The notes under the pieces were generated by a model. It saw only the letters and a program-made list of their open reading frames with translations, searched no databases and was not told where the DNA came from. Below, piece by piece: positions 4,873-18,187 of a stretch of DNA of 27,982 bases. The stretch is taken from IMG/VR virus record IMGVR_UViG_3300023172_000149, positions 1 to 27,982 of that record; one strand, written 5' to 3'. The first letter of the stretch is position 1. Each line of letters starts with the position of its first letter. The position numbers and the translations under genes are program-made. The stretch is from a virus.

Positions 4873-5081
4873 GATAATAGTTTACTAAAGCTAATTGCTA
4901 AGAGAAATCCTAGCATGATTACAATGTCCCATGATTTTGTTTTCACAAAAAATGGAATTGAGATTGTGTCTGCAATCACGTTCATAATAACCCCAGCGGT
5001 CAAATTAACGTGCAATACAACAAAATAGGCAGCAATAACCATAATGCTGCCTATCACTCTCATTACAGTGAATGTTTTCAT
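4869..5081 (-). CDS. 70-aa predicted membrane protein
   Basis: The 70-aa product is strongly hydrophobic. Likely transmembrane helices lie at about residues 6 to 25, a weaker one at about 28 to 45, and one at about 51 to 68. The few charges (Lys2, Arg8, Lys47, Lys49) suggest loops on the cytoplasmic side. It starts inside the gp45 stop (ATGA) and ends inside the next start (ATGA), so it is part of the same translationally coupled operon. I do not recognise a family; a membrane anchor or a host-directed small protein are possibilities. Confidence 0.7.
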   Translation of the reverse strand: MKTFTVMRVIGSIMVIAAYFVVLHVNLTAGVIMNVIADTISIPFFVKTKSWDIVIMLGFLLAISFSKLLS

Positions 5082-5749
5082 CCAAAAGAAGAATCAGGTT
5101 CGAGTGCAATGTAATAAGTCAATTTGTGATCTTTGCTCTGGAAGCGTGAAAGAAGTTGCTTGGAAATAACAACTTCATAAGAACCAGGAAGAATCTTCAT
5201 GTTTTCAACTTTGAAGTTGAATGTAAAGTTTTCTTCGGATTCACCAACCACAACAGAGAAATCATTGGATGTATCGTTTCTCTTATCACGAGCAACCAGT
5301 TTTACAACACCTGCCTCACCAACGACAGAAAGGTCAGGGAGTTGAAGAACTGCTGCTGCTTTAAGAACTTTTGCAAGTTGTTCAGTAGAAAGAACAAAGC
5401 AAACATCTTGAGAAGGAAGAGTGATTGATTTCTCGGGAGGAGTTACAATCACATTTGCATCAGCAAAGAAATACTTTGAGCGTGACTTACCTTCTTTAAT
5501 CAAAACATACTCATCAGTCTTGAAATCAAGTTCAGGATTCTGATGAAGGTCAATGTTTTGCAGAAACTGATTCAGATCATAAATTCCAAAATCCTTTGGG
5601 AAATATTCTTCAACTTCTGCTTCTGCAAGAATGTTCTTCATCACAGAAATAGTCCGAAGAGACTTTCCTTCCTTAAACAAAATAGATTGGTTAATAGCAG
5701 AAAAGTTCTTCAGAACAGAGAGAGTTTTATCAGACAGTTTCATGTTCAT
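5078..5749 (-). CDS. 45: Sliding clamp gp45
   Basis: gp45 forms the trimeric ring that tethers the polymerase to DNA and, in T4, also activates late promoters together with gp55 and gp33. The 223-aa product matches T4 gp45 (228 aa) in length and order: MKLSDKTLSVLKNFSAIN at the start, FGIYDLNQFL, ENFTFNFKVENMKILPGSYEV, and the closing YYIALEPDSSFG. ATG at 5749 overlaps the preceding stop; a second ATG at 5743 would match the T4 start more exactly. Neither has a clear Shine-Dalgarno, so translation is probably coupled to the upstream gene. Confidence 0.95.
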   Translation of the reverse strand: MNMKLSDKTLSVLKNFSAINQSILFKEGKSLRTISVMKNILAEAEVEEYFPKDFGIYDLNQFLQNIDLHQNPELDFKTDEYVLIKEGKSRSKYFFADANVIVTPPEKSITLPSQDVCFVLSTEQLAKVLKAAAVLQLPDLSVVGEAGVVKLVARDKRNDTSNDFSVVVGESEENFTFNFKVENMKILPGSYEVVISKQLLSRFQSKDHKLTYYIALEPDSSFG

Positions 5750-6218: not shown

Positions 6219-7319
6219 TCAGGAAAAGTTGTGAGAGTCAAGACATTCTTTCTGCTGTTCCTCAGAAGGCATCTGGAACTCAGCGTCTACTTTATCATAA
6301 AGTTCCATAAAAACTTGCTTGGTTTCATCATCAAAACGATTCAGACACACTTGCATTGCTTTTGCTTTATCACCAAAGATTTCAAATGCCTTGACGATGT
6401 GAACCAAACGGCGAGTGCTGATAATCTCATCAATACCACCATCGTAGAAGGTCTTACGGATAATGTCTGCCCAGTCAGAAAGACGCTTGCAGAACTCAGC
6501 ATCAGCACAGAGTTTGTTGAGAATCTTCTGCTCAATAGCAGGAGTTGGATACTCTTGCTCAAAAGTCACAGGGAAACGCTCAAGGAATGCCTCATTCAGA
6601 ACATTGGTGCCGATGAAACGACCATCATCAGAACCCTTACCTTTGGTGTTTGCAGTAGCAATCACTTGGAAACCAGCAGCAGGTTTGATGAACTTACCAA
6701 TCTTCTTCAGGAAGACACCTTTTCCTTCGAGAATTGATTGGAGGCAAAGAATCTTGTTGGAAGCAAGGTCAATCTCGTCAAGGAGCAAGATAGCTCCTCG
6801 TTGGAGTGCTTCAATGACTGGGCCATTGTGCCAGACGGTTGCACCATCAACAAGGCGGAAACCGCCAATAAGATCATCTTCATCAGTCTCAATAGTAATG
6901 TTTACACGGATGAGTTCTCGTCCGAGTTGGGCGCAAGCTTGCTCAACACCGAACGTTTTGCCGTTGCCAGAGAGACCCGTAATGAACGTTGGATAGAATA
7001 GACGGGACGAAATAATTTTCTTAACATCACCGAAATTGCCAAACTTGACGAAGGTATCATCTTTTTGGGGGATAAGGTTTTGTTCCACAGACGGAAGTGC
7101 TGCAGGAGCATTATACGTCACTTCAAGTTCTTGAACTGTCTCTTTTGTTACTTTCAGGTTCCACTTGCCACGGCCAACTTTACAATCAGCAAGTTTACCA
7201 GTAACGGTCTGATACCCATGTCCGTTCATCACACACCAAGCACGAACATCACCAGAGGTCACAGTTTCACCGTAGAGTGCTTGAAGGGAAGTACGGATGT
7301 AGTCGGCAGAGAGTGCCAT
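6219..7319 (-). CDS. cobS: CobS/MoxR-like AAA+ ATPase
   Basis: This 366-aa AAA+ ATPase is the protein usually called CobS in marine T4-like phages, after the ATPase subunit of aerobic cobaltochelatase. A helical N-terminal region (1-75) precedes the AAA+ core with Walker A GLSGNGKT (115-122), the ETDEDDLIGGFRLVDG segment (144-159) typical of MoxR/CobS, and Walker B ILLLDEID (177-184). The VWA partner is encoded just upstream, with a zinc-ribbon gene between. No CobN large subunit is visible, so a MoxR-type chaperone role is as plausible as cobalt insertion. It has a possible TATAAT promoter element at 7345-7350. Confidence 0.88.
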   Translation of the reverse strand: MALSADYIRTSLQALYGETVTSGDVRAWCVMNGHGYQTVTGKLADCKVGRGKWNLKVTKETVQELEVTYNAPAALPSVEQNLIPQKDDTFVKFGNFGDVKKIISSRLFYPTFITGLSGNGKTFGVEQACAQLGRELIRVNITIETDEDDLIGGFRLVDGATVWHNGPVIEALQRGAILLLDEIDLASNKILCLQSILEGKGVFLKKIGKFIKPAAGFQVIATANTKGKGSDDGRFIGTNVLNEAFLERFPVTFEQEYPTPAIEQKILNKLCADAEFCKRLSDWADIIRKTFYDGGIDEIISTRRLVHIVKAFEIFGDKAKAMQVCLNRFDDETKQVFMELYDKVDAEFQMPSEEQQKECLDSHNFS

Positions 7320-7344
7320 TGCTTTCTTTGTTTGAACTGAAGTT

Positions 7345-7350
7345 ATTATA
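7345..7350 (-). promoter_or_regulatory. Possible early promoter -10 for the cobS-like gene
   Basis: The minus strand reads TATAAT 25 bases before the ATG at 7319, in the short gap after the zinc-ribbon gene. No good -35 element is visible 16 to 18 bases upstream, so this is a weak call. Confidence 0.35.
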
Positions 7351-7528
7351 GATCAAAATCTAGGTCTTCAGACACTCGAACAGACGGTTCTTCTACTGGC
7401 ACACCATCATGCTTCTTACGACAAACAGCACGGGCATAAGCCCGTGCCAAACTTGTTATTTCGGAGCAAGGTTTATCCCTCTCCCCACAATAAGGACAAG
7501 TTTCATACTTGTCCGAAATCTTAGACAT
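7346..7528 (-). CDS. 60-aa zinc-ribbon protein
   Basis: The 60-aa product carries Cys11-Pro-Tyr-Cys14, followed by Cys21 and Cys36, a layout that can hold one zinc ion, and a very acidic C-terminal tail (SEDLDFDL). The CPYCGERD motif is like those in small nucleic-acid-binding or adaptor proteins. Its start overlaps the stop of the VWA gene (TAATG) and it is followed by the CobS-like ATPase, so it is part of that module. An adaptor between the two large proteins is possible but not shown by the sequence. Confidence 0.72.
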   Translation of the reverse strand: MSKISDKYETCPYCGERDKPCSEITSLARAYARAVCRKKHDGVPVEEPSVRVSEDLDFDL

Positions 7529-9654
7529 TAGGCAATCAACTCCACGAACTCGCCCAGTATTTTCTTATTTAGTTTCTTGGACTTCAAGCTTTTCATGAAA
7601 GCATTCTTGACTTGTGCTTTTGTTGCATCATCCTTTACAAAGAAATCAGTTTCGTTTGAAAGTGCAGAACCAGAAATACCAAAATACTTTTCATAAGCAC
7701 TAGAAGTGATAGAAATACACCTATCCTTCTTCCATCGCTTCATTGCATTATCATGATCATCTCCATAATAACCGCAGTGGCGACGAATAAAGGAACCACT
7801 ATTTCCATCAAGAATACGAATACCAATAAAGTTCACACCAGGAACTTCATCCTTCAAATCCTCAATCAAGATGTCTGTGAACTCCCACCATGCTTCAGGA
7901 ACCTTATAAGTGTTTCCAGTCTTACGATTGCGAAGATAGGTTCCAGTGCCCAACCTACGACATCCGATGTAAGGTTCAGAATAACCAGGATCAATCTGAA
8001 CGTGCCGAACAAGATGACTTGATTCACCATCAGTCAAAATAACACAATTGACTTTCTGAAGTTTATTCTGATTTTTGAACTGAGGAATAATTTTATGAAG
8101 TGCAAGAATACTCTCATTCAGAGGTGTTCCAGAGAGACTCAGACGACCAGGAATAGAGTATTCGACCCAATACTTCATTGAGTAAGCACAACGCCAAATG
8201 TTCTTCATCTGTTCCTCAAGTTCCTTATTGGAAACATCAGAAGTAAAGAACTCCATCAAAGAGAATCGATTATCAACATTAAGAAGACCATCTTTTGGTT
8301 CATAATGAGGTTTCAATGATTGTGGGCGATCATTCTCATCATAAGTTACAACATTGAACTCATAAGTGAAAGCATACACACGGAATGGAATAGATACTTT
8401 TTTACAGAACCATACAAGATTGTAGAGTTGCTTCATAGTGTCCATCAGAACATTGGACATTGAACCAGACCAGTCCAGAACAAACACAAGACCGTGATTC
8501 TTACCGTCAGGAATAACTGTTACTTTCTTGAACAGGTCTTCATTGTATCGATAAGTGTGTAACTTAGTTGTATCGAGAACTCCAGTCCTACTAGTAGTAG
8601 CACGAGAATAAGCGTCTGCAGATTTACGGCACTCGAATTCTTTGACAAGATAATTTACCTCTTTGTTTGCTGACTTTTTATACTTTTGATACTCAGTATC
8701 AGGACGCTCAAACAATTTGGAAGCATCCATAGTTCCATGCTCCACAAGAATACCAAAGTGGTCTTTGATTAGATCATGAACTTCCTCATTGCTGTTTACG
8801 ATTGTATCAAGACTCAAATCAGGTGCCTGAACATACTCATTGCTCAGTGAGTTGCTGATCAAATCTTTGAGTTTTTCATTCAGAACATCATCAGTTTTGA
8901 CTTCAGGATCTGTCCCACCATAAGATTCATCTTCATCCAGTTCTTCACTCTCAGTTCCTTGAGTATCTGGAATAGGTTCTCCACTAGAAGTCTGAGGAAC
9001 TTCAAATTCTGTTTGCTGTTCTTCTTCTTTTTTAGATTCTTCTTCTCCACCACCTTGCTCTTGCTGAGGAGTTTCTACATTAGAAACTTTCTCTTGCTTC
9101 TGTTCTTCTTGCTTTTTCTTACAATACTTGTAAAGAACTTCTGCTGCGTGTTGAGCATCATCAAAAGTTTCTGCGTCAGCAATCAGGTTGATGATTTCCA
9201 TTTCTTCACCACCCTCAATGTGAATGTCGATGAAGGAACCTACTTTGAACCACAGGTTTGCACGGTCAGCAAGGTTCATTGAAGGAATGTCTTCATCACC
9301 AATACAAAAGAAATCATCATCTTGAAGTTCTTTATATCCACGATAAAAAGTCTTGGGAAGACCAGCATACTTACGCTTCATCAGTTTCTCAATGCGAGCA
9401 TCCTCTACAACATTGATGAACTGCTGAGGAACTTTTACAGTCCAGTCTTCATTAGGAGTGAAGAGGGCGTGACCCACTTCGTGAGACACCAGCATGTCGT
9501 AAACATTATTGCTCGCTTTCTCCCACATAGGGAGCGTCAGGACGCGAGTATCTACATTGAATGAAGCAGTCTGTACTTTCTTGTTCTCAATAATCAGGTC
9601 CTCAGTCGCCAGCAACTTGGCGAGTTGACCTTTGATTTCTAGGTTGACCGTCAT
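7528..9654 (-). CDS. CobT-like VWA protein with an HEVGH motif
   Basis: The 708-aa product has an N-terminal domain with HEVGH (58-62), followed by NVVEDARIEKLMKRKY (81-96), a combination that looks like a metal-dependent peptidase core. A low-complexity Glu/Gln/Lys linker covers about 180 to 260. A von Willebrand A domain begins at about 385, with the metal-binding MIDAS motif DWSGSMS (394-400), SGTPLNES and TDGESS. VWA proteins partnered with MoxR/CobS ATPases, such as CobT, act with them as remodelling machines. Marine phage versions are often labelled cobalt chelatase or peptidase. The ATG at 9654 follows a short promoter-like gap. The role in infection is not known. Confidence 0.82.
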   Translation of the reverse strand: MTVNLEIKGQLAKLLATEDLIIENKKVQTASFNVDTRVLTLPMWEKASNNVYDMLVSHEVGHALFTPNEDWTVKVPQQFINVVEDARIEKLMKRKYAGLPKTFYRGYKELQDDDFFCIGDEDIPSMNLADRANLWFKVGSFIDIHIEGGEEMEIINLIADAETFDDAQHAAEVLYKYCKKKQEEQKQEKVSNVETPQQEQGGGEEESKKEEEQQTEFEVPQTSSGEPIPDTQGTESEELDEDESYGGTDPEVKTDDVLNEKLKDLISNSLSNEYVQAPDLSLDTIVNSNEEVHDLIKDHFGILVEHGTMDASKLFERPDTEYQKYKKSANKEVNYLVKEFECRKSADAYSRATTSRTGVLDTTKLHTYRYNEDLFKKVTVIPDGKNHGLVFVLDWSGSMSNVLMDTMKQLYNLVWFCKKVSIPFRVYAFTYEFNVVTYDENDRPQSLKPHYEPKDGLLNVDNRFSLMEFFTSDVSNKELEEQMKNIWRCAYSMKYWVEYSIPGRLSLSGTPLNESILALHKIIPQFKNQNKLQKVNCVILTDGESSHLVRHVQIDPGYSEPYIGCRRLGTGTYLRNRKTGNTYKVPEAWWEFTDILIEDLKDEVPGVNFIGIRILDGNSGSFIRRHCGYYGDDHDNAMKRWKKDRCISITSSAYEKYFGISGSALSNETDFFVKDDATKAQVKNAFMKSLKSKKLNKKILGEFVELIA

Positions 9655-9839: not shown

Positions 9840-11552
9840 TCAGGACATCATACGGGAGAATCCTTTGACTTTCTCGAACCTTATGACACTTTGGAATTTG
9901 TCCTCAAGTCCAGTCTTATGAGAAATCACAAATACATTAGCATCTTTAATCACAAATCGAATAATCTTTAAGAACTCATCAGTTCCATAACCATCCAATG
10001 AACTATCAAATACCTCATCAAGAATCAAAAGATTAGTACTAGTTGAGTTTTTAAACTTGGCAACTTCCCTCCAAGTAAAGAGAAGTGCCAAGTCGATTCT
10101 TTGTTTTTCTCCTTCGCTAAATGAACTGTAAGAAAAATCCTCGTGGATTGGTGTTTGAATTGTTTCGTTGAACTCCTCGTCCAGAGTAAAGTTGATGTAA
10201 AAATCCATCATCTGAAGATACTTATTGACCTGCTGATTAATCAGAGGAAGATACTTTTTGATGATCTTTGTTTTTACACCTCCGTCTTTTAGAAGACTGT
10301 AAATGTAATCGTAGTAAGTAATATTCTCTTTTTGTTTGTAGAAGTCCTCAGTTAATGATTGGAGGTCTTCTTTAAATTTTGCTAACTTGTCATGCTCAAC
10401 ACTTCGGTTTGCAAGGTCTTCGGCAGTTCTTTGAATTTCATTTTGTAAATCTCTGATCTGTCGATGTATTGATGTAATCCGAGAATTGTTTTTAGAAATA
10501 CCATTCGTTAAGTTAGAAACATCCTTGGAAATCTGAAGGAAATGATCTTCTCTGATTTCTTCATCACGAATTGCCTGCTCAAGTTCTTTATAAGCATTTT
10601 GCAGTTCTTTTGCCTTTGATTTGGCTTCACTAATTTTATTTAACCTAAACTCTTCTTCTAGGTCTTGGGTGCAGGTGGGGCATACCGTATTTTCCTTAAA
10701 GAAACTATGCTCTTCAGTAATCGTCGCTACCTTCTGAGTCATCTTTCCTTTAAGGTTTCCTAACTTACGAAGTTTTTCTTTTGCTCCTTTGTAAGATTCT
10801 AGTTTCTTATTCAGGTCTTCAATCTCAGAACCAAGATTTTCTACTTCTTCTCCGAGAGAAGTTTCCTCATCACAAAGTTCATCAATCTTATCTTCCTTAT
10901 CCTTTATTGATTCCTTTCCCCTCTTTTCAATGTCCTCAATAAAGTTCTCCTGCATCTCAATCTTATCAGAAAGAGATTCTTTTTTAAGGTCAAGATTCTT
11001 AACTTGCTCTTTCAGAAAACGAATTTTATCTTTAACAATAGATGTCATTGAAGAAAAGATTTTGATGTCAAGTAAGTCTTCAATAACTTCTCTACGACTT
11101 GCAGCAGTCAACTGCATAAAAGGAACAAAGTTACTACTACCAAGAATCACAACCTGAGTGAATGACTTATAGTTCATCTTAAGAACATTTTGCTCAAGCC
11201 ATTTCTGCTGATCAATCGAAGATGCTTCTTGGTTTAATACCTCTCCATTCTTATGAATTTCAAAGACTGTTGGTTTAATTCCTCTACGAACTTTCCAGTC
11301 AATAGTTCCAATAGAAAAATCAATTTCAACCAAACAATCTTTTTCGTTTGTGGAGTTAATCAGTTGTGGTTTATTGATTCCACGAAAAGATTTACCAAAC
11401 AAAGAAAAAGTTAGTGCGTCAAGAACAGTACTCTTTCCTGCTCCATTCGTACCAACAATTAATGTAGTATTTGATTTATCAAACTCAATCTCATTAAACT
11501 GATTTCCAGTGGATAAAAAGTTTTTAAATTTAATTTTCTTAAACAGTATCAT
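9840..11552 (-). CDS. 46: Recombination nuclease subunit gp46 (Rad50-like)
   Basis: gp46 is the SMC/Rad50-type ATPase that works with gp47 to resect DNA ends for recombination-dependent replication. The 570-aa product (T4: 560 aa) has Walker A GTNGAGKST (34-42), long coiled coils from about 170 to 415 broken by the zinc-hook CPTC (291-294), the ABC signature SFSEGEKQR (477-485) and Walker B LLILDEVFD (508-516). It starts with ATG overlapping the DUF3110-like gene by 14 bases. Everything expected of an active enzyme is present. Confidence 0.96.
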   Translation of the reverse strand: MILFKKIKFKNFLSTGNQFNEIEFDKSNTTLIVGTNGAGKSTVLDALTFSLFGKSFRGINKPQLINSTNEKDCLVEIDFSIGTIDWKVRRGIKPTVFEIHKNGEVLNQEASSIDQQKWLEQNVLKMNYKSFTQVVILGSSNFVPFMQLTAASRREVIEDLLDIKIFSSMTSIVKDKIRFLKEQVKNLDLKKESLSDKIEMQENFIEDIEKRGKESIKDKEDKIDELCDEETSLGEEVENLGSEIEDLNKKLESYKGAKEKLRKLGNLKGKMTQKVATITEEHSFFKENTVCPTCTQDLEEEFRLNKISEAKSKAKELQNAYKELEQAIRDEEIREDHFLQISKDVSNLTNGISKNNSRITSIHRQIRDLQNEIQRTAEDLANRSVEHDKLAKFKEDLQSLTEDFYKQKENITYYDYIYSLLKDGGVKTKIIKKYLPLINQQVNKYLQMMDFYINFTLDEEFNETIQTPIHEDFSYSSFSEGEKQRIDLALLFTWREVAKFKNSTSTNLLILDEVFDSSLDGYGTDEFLKIIRFVIKDANVFVISHKTGLEDKFQSVIRFEKVKGFSRMMS

Positions 11553-11808
11553 TTTCAGTAGGAGGTATCACAATATCATTAGAATCAAAAACTATGTAAC
11601 TATGCCCGTGCATTTCACATACTTGTAAGATTAACTCTTTATCAACTTCAACTACGTTCATCTCTGGACTACCAGAATTTTCCAGCATCATAGCAAAACG
11701 TGTTGCATCATCTTCTTCTTCAAAGATGTAAAGAATTTGTTCCCCAAATTCATTTCTTACAGAATAAGCACCTTCCTCCTCTCTTCCGTCAATTGTGATT
11801 ATAAACAT
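11539..11808 (-). CDS. DUF3110-like protein between gp47 and gp46
   Basis: The 89-aa product starts MFIITIDGREEEGAYSV and continues with LYIFEEEDDATRFAMMLE and VVEVDKELILQVCEMHGH. This strand-helix-strand order with an acidic DDA.RFA helix matches my memory of DUF3110, a small family best known from cyanobacteria. That supports a cyanobacterial host link. The function is unknown. The ATG at 11808 shares its first base with the gp47 stop (TAATG), so the upstream non-ATG extension of the frame is rejected. It is co-translated with the gp46-gp47 nuclease. Confidence 0.7.
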   Translation of the reverse strand: MFIITIDGREEEGAYSVRNEFGEQILYIFEEEDDATRFAMMLENSGSPEMNVVEVDKELILQVCEMHGHSYIVFDSNDIVIPPTENDTV

Positions 11809-12839
11809 TAGAACACTTCGCAAGACTCCTGATAAACTTCCTGAATCATTTTCTTTAGGACTGATTTGTCCAATTCATTTTCTGATTCGGTAATGTATCT
11901 ATTCAAGATAGAAAGCGTGTTCTCAGACTCAATGTCTTCAGTCGTCTTTTCATCTTCTACTACCTGGAAGTTTTCTACAATTTTAACTTCAGCAGGATTT
12001 TGGGAATAGATGTACTCTAAGTATTTTTCAAACTTGAGATGATTTTTCTTTTCTCTAACAACAACCTTTACGATTTTATTCTCAAAGTCTTGTTCTTCAT
12101 CCAAGTCATCTTCAACATAATTGACTAGTTTGAAAATGCTGTAGGGATTGTTTATTGGAAAATGTTCCAGAGTTTCTGTATCAAAGATGGTGAATCCTCT
12201 CCGATCACCGACATCTGACCAGAACATTTCGTATGGATTTCCCAAGTAGTATATCCGTCCATCATCCGATCGAGTGTGATAGTGACCGCTGAAGACCTTG
12301 GTGAACTTTGAATATAACTTGCCATCATGACCATGGTCCATGACGATTTGTTTATTAACTCTAAATCCGTTGAGTTCAAGGTGCCCCATCGCGACTTTGC
12401 AAGTCGTACCTTTAATAAGTTTATAAGATTCTGTCTCATTGTTTTCATTAATCCAAGGTAAAAATAGTATATCTAGTCCTCCAATCTTGACCTCTGTTGG
12501 GGAAGAGTAAGTCTTAATGTTGGAATAAGAGTTAAGAAGCAGTTCAGGAGAGTTGACTTGACTGGTATTCTTGTAGTAAGTATCATGATTACCAATCATC
12601 ATGTGAACCTTGTACTTAGACAAAGGGTCAAAGACAACTCTTTTTGCCCATTCTAAACTTGCATAATCAATGGTTTTGCGAGCATCAAATGCATCACCCA
12701 TGTGGATGACTGTATCTATCCCGTACTGTTCCAGCGTCGGGAAAAAGACAGTTCTATAAAAGTTCTCAAAGTATTCTTCAAATACCTTAGAACCTTTCTT
12801 AAACCCATAATGAGTGTCGGTGATAATCGCGACTTTCAT
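11808..12839 (-). CDS. 47: Recombination nuclease subunit gp47 (Mre11-like)
   Basis: gp47 is the metal-dependent nuclease that pairs with gp46. The 343-aa length matches T4 gp47 (339 aa). The metallophosphoesterase signature is complete: DTHYG (8-12), GDAFDAR (48-54), GNHDTYY (83-89), GHLE (152-155) and SGHYH (184-188), which together supply the two-metal site. The C-terminal 100 residues are acidic and helical, the likely contact with gp46. It starts one base after the gp55 stop. Confidence 0.96.
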   Translation of the reverse strand: MKVAIITDTHYGFKKGSKVFEEYFENFYRTVFFPTLEQYGIDTVIHMGDAFDARKTIDYASLEWAKRVVFDPLSKYKVHMMIGNHDTYYKNTSQVNSPELLLNSYSNIKTYSSPTEVKIGGLDILFLPWINENNETESYKLIKGTTCKVAMGHLELNGFRVNKQIVMDHGHDGKLYSKFTKVFSGHYHTRSDDGRIYYLGNPYEMFWSDVGDRRGFTIFDTETLEHFPINNPYSIFKLVNYVEDDLDEEQDFENKIVKVVVREKKNHLKFEKYLEYIYSQNPAEVKIVENFQVVEDEKTTEDIESENTLSILNRYITESENELDKSVLKKMIQEVYQESCEVF

Positions 12840-16783: not shown

Positions 16784-18187
16784 TCACATGAGGTTCTTAA
16801 CCTGGACTCTTCTGTAGTAACGGTTGGTGTTAGCAACAAGTTGTCCGAGTGCAGTAGCAGCACCTGAAGCGAGACCGCCTTCAGCGAATGGGTTTGCGAC
16901 CATGCCGTAGCGGGTCTTAAAGCCAATCTTGGGCTGGAAGTTGTTCTCACCAACGGCACGAACCATTTGGAGAGGAACGTATGGGCAGTAGAACATACCA
17001 GCGTCATAAGGTGAAGTACCCTTATAACCAGCAACGTAGTACTGAGCTGCAGAACCATTTGCAGAATAAGGATCGATGTAGACGCGATACTTACCCATCA
17101 GAGTACCAGCAAAGGTGTTGCCGGTGTCATCAACGTTCAGGTTAGCGTTGAGTGCAGGGGTGTAATCAAGTACACCAGCCATGGTCAGTGCAGAAGCAAC
17201 GTCTGCAGAACACAGGATGATGTTGCCCTTTCCTCTACGAGTTCTTTGTGCGATTGCGTTAGCATCACGCTCGATTTGGAACAGGAGACCCTTGAACTTC
17301 TCAACAGACCAACGACCATTGGAGTCAACGTCGAGGTCGAATACGCCCTGGCTAGCAACGTTAGTCGATGCGCCTTGCTCAGCAGTCTTGTAGATAGTTC
17401 TGATGACTTCGCGGTTGATTTCAGCAAGAATTTCGCTAGACAGAATGTTAGCGAGTTCTGCTTCTGCATTCAGACCGTGAATTGCCTTCAGGTCTTGTGC
17501 AAGCTCAAGGCTGTACTCTGCTTTCAGTGCTCTTGACTTAGCAGTTACAGTGACCTTCTCGATCGAGAATGCCATTTCAGCGAATGCTGAAGTAGTGTCA
17601 TCTTCACCAAGAGTTTCAGCATCGCCGGTATTCATACCAGTACCGACGCTGTAGTCGTCACCAGTGTTCAGGAGACCAGGATTTTCGCCTACTTGGTCGG
17701 TGCTACCAATGCCAGCATTACCAGCATATGGATCGCCAACAACAAGGTCTCTCTGAGCATTCTGACCAGAGAATCCAGTATCTGCTTCGTCAAACAGTGC
17801 TTCAGCACCAGTTTGACTGGTGTAGCGTGAACGCATTGCGAAGATCAGTCCAGTAGGACCAGTCATTGGCTGAACGCCTGCGAGGTCATAAGCGACCAGG
17901 TTAGGCATAGAGCGTCTGATCAGGGAGATCAGAACGGGATCGAAACCAGCGACAGGACCACCTTCAGCAGATCCACCAGTGAAACCACCAGTGCCAGCAG
18001 CGTTAGTTGGTGCCTCAGTCAGGAATGAACCAGACTGTGAAAAAGCATTTTGCTCTTGTAAAAACTTTTCTTGGTTTTCCAGCAGTTGAGCGGTTACTGC
18101 CTTCTTGTGAGGGTCTGTGATTGAATCCAGACCTTCATGCTCCAGAAGGGGTGCCCACTTTTCCTGCAGATGTTCAGATTGAAACAT
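16784..18187 (-). CDS. 23: Major capsid protein gp23
   Basis: gp23 builds the hexamers of the head shell. The 467-aa precursor is somewhat shorter than T4 gp23 (521 aa). It has the expected N-terminal propeptide, helical and charged (1-58), ending in FLTE followed by APTN; LTE fits the gp21 cleavage rule (Leu or Ile, any, Glu). The HK97-type core has LVAYDLAGVQPMTGPTGLIFAMRSRY, TVTAKSRALKAEYSLELAQDLKAIHGL and the closing KTRYGMVANPF. It starts with ATG after AAGG and follows gp22. It is probably the most highly expressed gene here. Confidence 0.97.
   Translation of the reverse strand: MFQSEHLQEKWAPLLEHEGLDSITDPHKKAVTAQLLENQEKFLQEQNAFSQSGSFLTEAPTNAAGTGGFTGGSAEGGPVAGFDPVLISLIRRSMPNLVAYDLAGVQPMTGPTGLIFAMRSRYTSQTGAEALFDEADTGFSGQNAQRDLVVGDPYAGNAGIGSTDQVGENPGLLNTGDDYSVGTGMNTGDAETLGEDDTTSAFAEMAFSIEKVTVTAKSRALKAEYSLELAQDLKAIHGLNAEAELANILSSEILAEINREVIRTIYKTAEQGASTNVASQGVFDLDVDSNGRWSVEKFKGLLFQIERDANAIAQRTRRGKGNIILCSADVASALTMAGVLDYTPALNANLNVDDTGNTFAGTLMGKYRVYIDPYSANGSAAQYYVAGYKGTSPYDAGMFYCPYVPLQMVRAVGENNFQPKIGFKTRYGMVANPFAEGGLASGAATALGQLVANTNRYYRRVQVKNLM

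Follow-up and report, generated by a model that had tools for sequence, protein, structure and literature searches.

Pairs of a MoxR-type AAA+ ATPase and a von Willebrand factor A (VWA) protein have been summarised in general terms in PMC7159879 (this and the papers below are cited for the excerpts available of each), and the closest described counterpart of the system discussed here was reported in 2021 in group 2.2 jumbo phages, where the vWA member of the MoxR-vWA pair bears a metallopeptidase domain at its N-terminus, and where a role in virion assembly was proposed by analogy with the pair of the Acidianus two-tailed virus (PMC7824862). In cyanophages and other viruses the pair has been treated as a cobalamin gene (PMC3037559, PMC8651126), with cobS listed in the cyanophage core (PMC3037559), and a study of the pCAR1 transcriptome described MoxR and VWA genes as conserved across R478, Rts1, SXT and R391 (PMC2642839). 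Our analysis concerns a pair of this kind in the window, namely the whole 27,982-base virus record IMGVR_UViG_3300023172_000149, which is T4-like and has Synechococcus myoviruses as its nearest relatives. There, a protein of 708 amino acids (aa), in which an N-terminal domain with an HExxH motif is joined to a VWA domain, is encoded near a 366-aa AAA+ ATPase. We propose, with a probability of about 0.5, that the two could form a zincin-bearing MoxR-VWA remodeller of recombination or replication complexes, based on a zinc signature invariant among the phage relatives compared, on a predicted zincin-like fold, and on the recombination genes found near the pair in phages, plasmids and bacteria.

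The architecture itself is already published; what is new here is the relationship to CobT and the recombination context. Whereas virion assembly was proposed for the jumbo-phage pair, which by its description (PMC7824862) shares this architecture, the gene context in our data points to recombination or replication, and homology to CobT is added to the picture. As for the conjugative plasmids and integrative and conjugative elements (ORF101-103 of pCAR1, R478, Rts1, SXT and R391; all but Rts1 known here from the description in PMC2642839), the AAA and VWA genes are homologous in the plasmids tested, but DUF3150 lies beside the pair and RecT or Bet plus a lambda exonuclease stand in place of phage gp46 and gp47; in a Pfam search, DUF3150 was not found among the window proteins tested. 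No paper tying the pair to recombination, or calling CobT a decayed zincin, was found in the open-licence literature searched.

Anatomy of the VWA-AAA pair

The features of the locus, in window positions, are listed below, with the neighbouring genes last.

7528..9654, minus strand: 708-aa HExxH-VWA protein, an open reading frame (ORF) matching phrog_459 (E 7.6e-263)
9076..9654, minus strand: predicted zincin-like N-terminal domain, aa 1-193 (AlphaFold2 predicted local distance difference test, pLDDT, 89.2; predicted template modelling score, pTM, 0.84; zincin fold matches)
9469..9483, minus strand: HEVGH, aa 58-62, by position (H, E and H invariant in 158/158)
9388..9408, minus strand: VEDARIE, aa 83-89, with the third-ligand candidate E84 (E84, D85 and R87 invariant in 158/158)
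8914..9078, minus strand: acidic low-confidence linker, about aa 193-247 (pLDDT <50)
7531..8505, minus strand: VWA domain and C-terminal helices, about aa 384-708 (fold matches to midasin MIDAS, Z 17.3, and NorD VWA, Z 15.4)
8458..8475, minus strand: DWSGSM of the metal ion-dependent adhesion site (MIDAS), aa 394-399, by position and conservation
6219..7319, minus strand: 366-aa MoxR/CobS-type AAA+ ATPase (AAA_5, E 2.1e-17; phrog_249, E 1.8e-137)
6954..6977, minus strand: Walker A GLSGNGKT of the ATPase (motif in a 201-protein comparison)
6768..6788, minus strand: Walker B LLLDEID of the ATPase (same comparison)
7346..7528, minus strand: 60-aa Cys4 protein, a lineage-specific gene in a variable site (8/69 loci; one phage in the phages collection)
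9840..11552, minus strand: gp46-like recombination endonuclease subunit, context (phrog_77, E 4e-183)
11808..12839, minus strand: gp47-like recombination endonuclease subunit, context (phrog_100, E 1.2e-109)
5078..5749, minus strand: gp45-like sliding clamp, context (phrog_223, E 6e-86)

A preliminary description of the window, made from its letters, had reported a 708-aa protein with HEVGH and a VWA MIDAS, a Cys4 60-aa protein and a CobS/MoxR-type ATPase, and all three are there: the first with HEVGH at 58-62, DWSGSM at 394-399, SGT at 508-510 and LTDGE at 540-544, the second with Cys at 11, 14, 21 and 36, and the third with its motifs intact. In the 708-aa protein the spacing is HExxH-x21-E, E84 being the candidate third ligand, and zincins of this kind carry HExxH with a later Glu. 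Residues H58, E59, H62, N81, E84, D85 and R87 are invariant in 158/158 phage relatives, as are D394, S396, S398, T510 and D542 of the MIDAS, which is complete. This set comprises loci fetched by pattern, minus truncated ones, plus five annotated phages, with near-duplicates included, and the patterns contain no HExxH. Because shuffling the first 200 residues 20,000 times produced an HExxH in only 0.65% of cases, and because it is invariant together with E84 in relatives fetched without recourse to the motif, we do not attribute it to chance. A Pfam search of this protein returned no family above its cut-off. The gluzincin hallmark, HExxH plus a downstream Glu as putative third ligand, is present in the 708-aa protein as in all 158 relatives, and sequence and model together make it likely that the N-terminal domain is a zinc-dependent peptidase.

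Two phages provide observations of their own. In the Pseudoalteromonas phage vB_Psh_XG4 (L166, 6036-8278, an unverified record), the protein is split over two adjacent ORFs, one of 343 aa for the HExxH domain (here HEVSH) and one of 399 aa for the VWA domain. The Vibrio phage ICP2_2011_A (L168, 1982-3724) keeps HECYH, and since its EDxRIE motif reads VVDHNIE, the third ligand may differ there.

The full-length model, built from 65 sequences, has a mean pLDDT of 77.8 and a weak N-terminus, and because the whole-protein fold search was swamped by VWA domains, the N-terminal domain was folded alone from alignment A5, which holds 66 diverse relatives and was pruned by hand (omitted were the relatives known to lack HExxH, most of the rows from cyanophages and a number of bacterial near-duplicates). 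Among solved structures, the top VIA match of this model is ArdC (Z 7.5, root-mean-square deviation [rmsd] 4.1, 120 aligned), followed by ZMPSTE24 (5.9), abylysin (5.7) and a Mycobacterium transcriptional regulator (5.6), then by selecase, jannalysin, IrrE and BlaR1 and, lower, by Wss1, with the zincin matches spanning Z 4.5-7.5; the upper part of this list, which was not selected for zincins, consists mostly of known zincins. Foldseek E-values were weak (best 0.031). CobT chains were not among the matches of the domain in either fold search (Foldseek, VIA), which is no evidence of a different fold. A zincin-like fold is in our opinion supported, rather than proved, by the model, in which the helices carrying HExxH and E84 fall within the well-predicted part, and the metallopeptidase-like pattern of HEVGH plus VEDARIE that the preliminary description had pointed out is backed by both the invariant signature and the predicted fold. 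The outcome that this description had set against its own reading, a CobT-like fold in which HEVGH sits far from a metal site, was not what the zincin-matching model gave. Compared with ArdC, abylysin, jannalysin, selecase, ZMPSTE24, Wss1 and IrrE, the phage domain differs in being fused to a VWA domain and paired with an AAA+ gene, and a sequence match to zincins was not found; searching the sequences of solved structures with the whole 708-aa protein or the whole alignment gave nothing useful. The C-terminal half of the full model aligns with the midasin MIDAS (rmsd 3.7, 223 aligned) and with the NorD VWA of the NorQ-NorD complex (rmsd 5.6, 251 aligned), and these matches lie in the VWA domain of either system.

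The ATPase has Walker A at residue 115 and LLLDEID at 178, and in a comparison of 201 proteins conservation is 95% or higher at each of G115, G118, G120, K121, E182, D184, N224, R248 and R303. With Walker A, Walker B and sensor residues intact it belongs with the MoxR clade, and with a neighbouring VWA protein whose DxSxS, T and D MIDAS is complete it makes up a MoxR-VWA gene pair; its sequence matches are midasin, CobS, NorQ and CbbQ. Of the 100 phage loci whose flank extends to 2.5 kb or more, 96 have the AAA gene downstream of the VWA gene. In the phages collection, where the VWA protein occurs in 463 records, the totals of VWA and AAA records agree for Synechococcus (365/365), Cyanophage (61/61), Prochlorococcus (24/24) and Pelagibacter (3/3), groups being counted by the first word of the organism name and totals being compared rather than individual records. 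The anatomy and pairing of the two genes are firm.

The same cannot be said of the third gene. The preliminary description had seen a compact three-gene module and, as a hypothesis, a zinc ribbon acting as adaptor of a MoxR-VWA machine that has a protease built in. The 708-aa stop and the 60-aa start do overlap (TAATG), and the AAA start follows the 60-aa stop after 26 nt. A homologue of the 60-aa gene was found at nine loci altogether, and at only 8 of the 69 loci holding both genes of the pair; seven of these eight are near kin of the window (73-100% identity, one of them 99.96% identical to it over 9.3 kb), and phage S-SCSM1 (41%) makes up the eighth. Searching the phages collection at E 1 turned up a homologue in one isolate phage, and the protein has no PHROG match. 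On this survey we rejected the module and its adaptor, while the conserved VWA-AAA pair and the predicted built-in zincin domain stand. The gap between the two genes (7319-7528 in the window, same site in L001-L085) is a variable cargo site of about 100 to 3,000 nt, which depending on the phage holds different small genes, a methyltransferase, others, or little.

Relation to CobT and to cobalamin synthesis

The PHROG labels, 'peptidase' for phrog_459 and 'porphyrin biosynthesis' for phrog_249, reflect a conflict over what this pair does. At E 1, NCBIfam gave no match for the 708-aa protein, the CobT cut-off (TIGR01651, 759.05 bits) not being reached, and the ATPase scored 69.6 bits against CobS (TIGR01650), below the cut-off of 558.55. 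The Pfam CobT family (PF06213) did match the HExxH domain of a Vibrio plasmid relative (E 7e-10), a protein that also shows a sub-threshold match to DUF2201_N, 'putative metallopeptidase domain', and a Klebsiella phage protein carrying HEVGH (E 1.4e-22). When the HExxH-domain profile from A5, which is free of CobT, was run on 177,635 PDB sequences, two CobT sequences ranked first (E 0.0016 and 0.0046), and hhalign of the HExxH domain against 23 CobT N-domains gave E 1.9e-10 and a probability of 96.9. By these profile comparisons, the N-terminal domain of the 708-aa protein is a remote homologue of the CobT N-terminus. HExxH is absent from all 23 aligned CobT N-domains, in which counterparts of E84, R87 and G98 persist; L254, L263 and L271 had been dropped from an initial 26 on account of a frame running in from upstream or a start that was cut. 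The dropped L254 has an HExxH inside the first 300 residues of an 865-aa open frame.

In a quick tree of 45 proteins, the HExxH label changes at least two times, once toward CobT and once toward the Acinetobacter plasmid and phage ANB28, both inside a starred group that also contains the HExxH-bearing SSU5-like proteins. The rows were picked by hand, the branches of ICP2, L081, L239 and L240 are long, and direction depends on rooting; the simplest reading would be that CobT lost the zinc site, a direction that we give as tentative. The conflict between labels appears to have a single cause, that is, an N-terminal domain shared by CobT and the phage protein, with the zinc motif missing in CobT and a few other branches. 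Cobalt chelatase or metallopeptidase, as the preliminary description put it, is therefore a false choice, the domain being homologous to the CobT N-terminus, where the zinc motif is absent. The statement that cyanophage cobT was 'mistakenly annotated as a peptidase' (PMC8651126) looks half right for the same reason, as the domain is homologous to CobT yet the zinc motif is kept in phages.

The proposal made in PMC8651126 is that the phage pair replaces CobS/CobT, uses the CobN of the host and raises cobalamin output. The common features, a remote N-domain homology and an AAA/VWA gene pair, are real, but CobT is without the zinc motif, phage scores fall far below curated cut-offs, and the gene neighbours are others. 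CobN was found in 0 of 15 phage or plasmid records carrying a related pair (the window itself was outside this search), with control detections in 5 of 14 genomes, and at E 1e-10 it is absent from 19 of the 32 host genomes in which a related pair occurs. CobN is present in a control genome from a cyanobacterium, which means that hosts may provide a partner, and its use by cyanophages is possible despite the absence from phage records. We take the pair to be something other than a cobaltochelatase, with CobT as a relative by common descent.

Gene neighbourhood in phages, plasmids and bacteria

Annotated phages, the Ochrobactrum phage as well as cyanophages, share one gene order: gp47, gp46, small genes, VWA, AAA, gp45 and clamp loader. 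A gp46 gene lies upstream of the VWA gene in 101 of 109 phage loci, and gp45 lies downstream in 27 of 32 testable loci. A tblastn search of plasmids with the window VWA protein gave no match, and plasmid relatives were reached via the ATPase; in viral_contigs, neither the Citrobacter plasmid protein nor the Ochrobactrum phage protein picked up any relatives. The plasmids concerned are IncC, IncT Rts1, Vibrio p123 and one Citrobacter plasmid, and each encodes, within a few kb, the HExxH-VWA protein, DUF3150 and the MoxR ATPase together with RecT or Bet and a lambda-type exonuclease; SSB is present as well in some. Among 44 bacterial loci searched locally with phmmer, AAA was found in 38, DUF3150 in 35, an exonuclease in 30 and an annealing protein in 27. 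Of the 36 bacterial or plasmid loci with a full upstream flank, 29 have an exonuclease or annealing protein, and 12 of 16 still do once the set is dereplicated at 50% identity, while the same search over about 8 kb on each side of 20 CobT loci found AAA in 20/20 and recombination genes in 0/20.

DUF3150 (L176, 5579-6856; homologues in L206-L245) is found very regularly beside the bacterial pair; it has no function in Pfam, and its name is absent from the open-licence literature searched. L230 (an Oceanospirillaceae metagenome-assembled genome, MAG) and L232 (from a MAG of Dehalococcoidia) reach about 99% identity over long stretches, pointing to mis-binning or to a mobile element common to both, and L240 (a Propionibacterium MAG contig) shares 8.5 kb at 88% DNA identity around the pair with L171 (an Aromatoleum aromaticum plasmid), which suggests a mobile element or, again, mis-binning. 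In the window itself, positions 17001-18000 have a G+C of 0.499 against 0.31-0.42 in the remaining 1-kb blocks.

Deletions of Rts1 Orf218 and SXT S063 lower conjugation (excerpt of PMC10838148), and these genes were considered as a possible AAA. They were not used, as Orf218, going by orf number, would precede the RecT gene, Orf223, yet the MoxR ATPase follows recT and the exonuclease in the Rts1 record.

A proposed machine and its rivals

In the mechanism we propose, the 366-aa protein would be the ATP-driven ring of a two-component MoxR-type machine and the 708-aa protein its VWA partner, whose MIDAS would grip a client protein. Across the flexible acidic linker, the gluzincin-type domain, with HExxH and E84, would hold zinc and cleave the client, wholly or in part. 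This client would most likely come from the recombination or replication apparatus of the element itself, gp46/47 and the clamp in phages, and an annealing protein plus exonuclease in the plasmid and bacterial relatives; we put the odds on such a client at about even, with gene context as its best support.

Several points weigh against this remodeller. The gp46 neighbourhood in phages is a single inherited gene order, with little weight as independent evidence. The alignment used to fetch the bacterial loci was based on plasmids, some of them linked to recombination, and HEAAH is part of one of the two patterns used, so that HExxH in 43/43 bacterial loci is partly by construction (the phage counts are free of this). 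No exonuclease or annealing genes were found at the bacterial loci L241, L242, L244 and L246, no recombination gene is listed beside the pair in the Aromatoleum plasmid record, and in the partial annotation of SSU5-like, ANB28 and ICP2 phages the pair has no recognised recombination neighbours; in ANB28, a DNA polymerase III alpha subunit gene is near. In Rts1 (L250, 29030-32192) the VWA gene is interrupted by an IS2 between its HEAAH and VWA domains. The recT and exonuclease genes beside it are intact and those for MoxR and DUF3150 are also kept, and the machine would therefore be dispensable there. Relatives with an altered motif persist as intact genes (REVST in ANB28, QEVAK in an Acinetobacter plasmid), and since some relatives do without HExxH, part of the role of the machine would need no zinc site. 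Lastly, the best Z of 7.5 lies in a range flagged by the tool as possibly a mere common arrangement.

The rival that survives best is the one published for group 2.2 jumbo phages, in which the pair would act as a chaperone-protease that remodels and cleaves structural proteins during virion assembly. The same anatomy is found here, which is in its favour, but annotated phages place the pair between gp46/47 and gp45, not among head and tail genes, and homologous pairs reside on conjugative plasmids and in bacterial genomes near RecT/Bet, exonuclease and DUF3150; we regard this role as unlikely. We also believe it improbable that the HExxH domain is non-catalytic, in which case the pair would be a MoxR-VWA chaperone and its zinc site would have a structural or a sensory part. 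The intact motif-altered relatives, to which CobT can be added, indicate that the scaffold works motif-free in some lineages, yet the catalytic E59 shows the same invariance as the ligands, and a structural site would have no need of that. That the pair serves as a CobST helper is, for the reasons given above of motif, scores, CobN distribution and neighbours, very doubtful.

A wider version of the remodeller can be entertained as a tentative possibility. The window pair might belong to the phage branch of a widespread mobile-element machine, in which a MoxR ring drives a VWA-tethered zincin that dismantles or processes recombination and replication nucleoprotein complexes, somewhat like the DNA-linked proteases Wss1/Spartan with their AAA motor, and CobT might be a derived member whose zinc site was erased as the machine was recruited to metal insertion. 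Should the link to recombination hold, the role assigned to a pair carried by hundreds of sequenced phages, with relatives on conjugative plasmids, would change.

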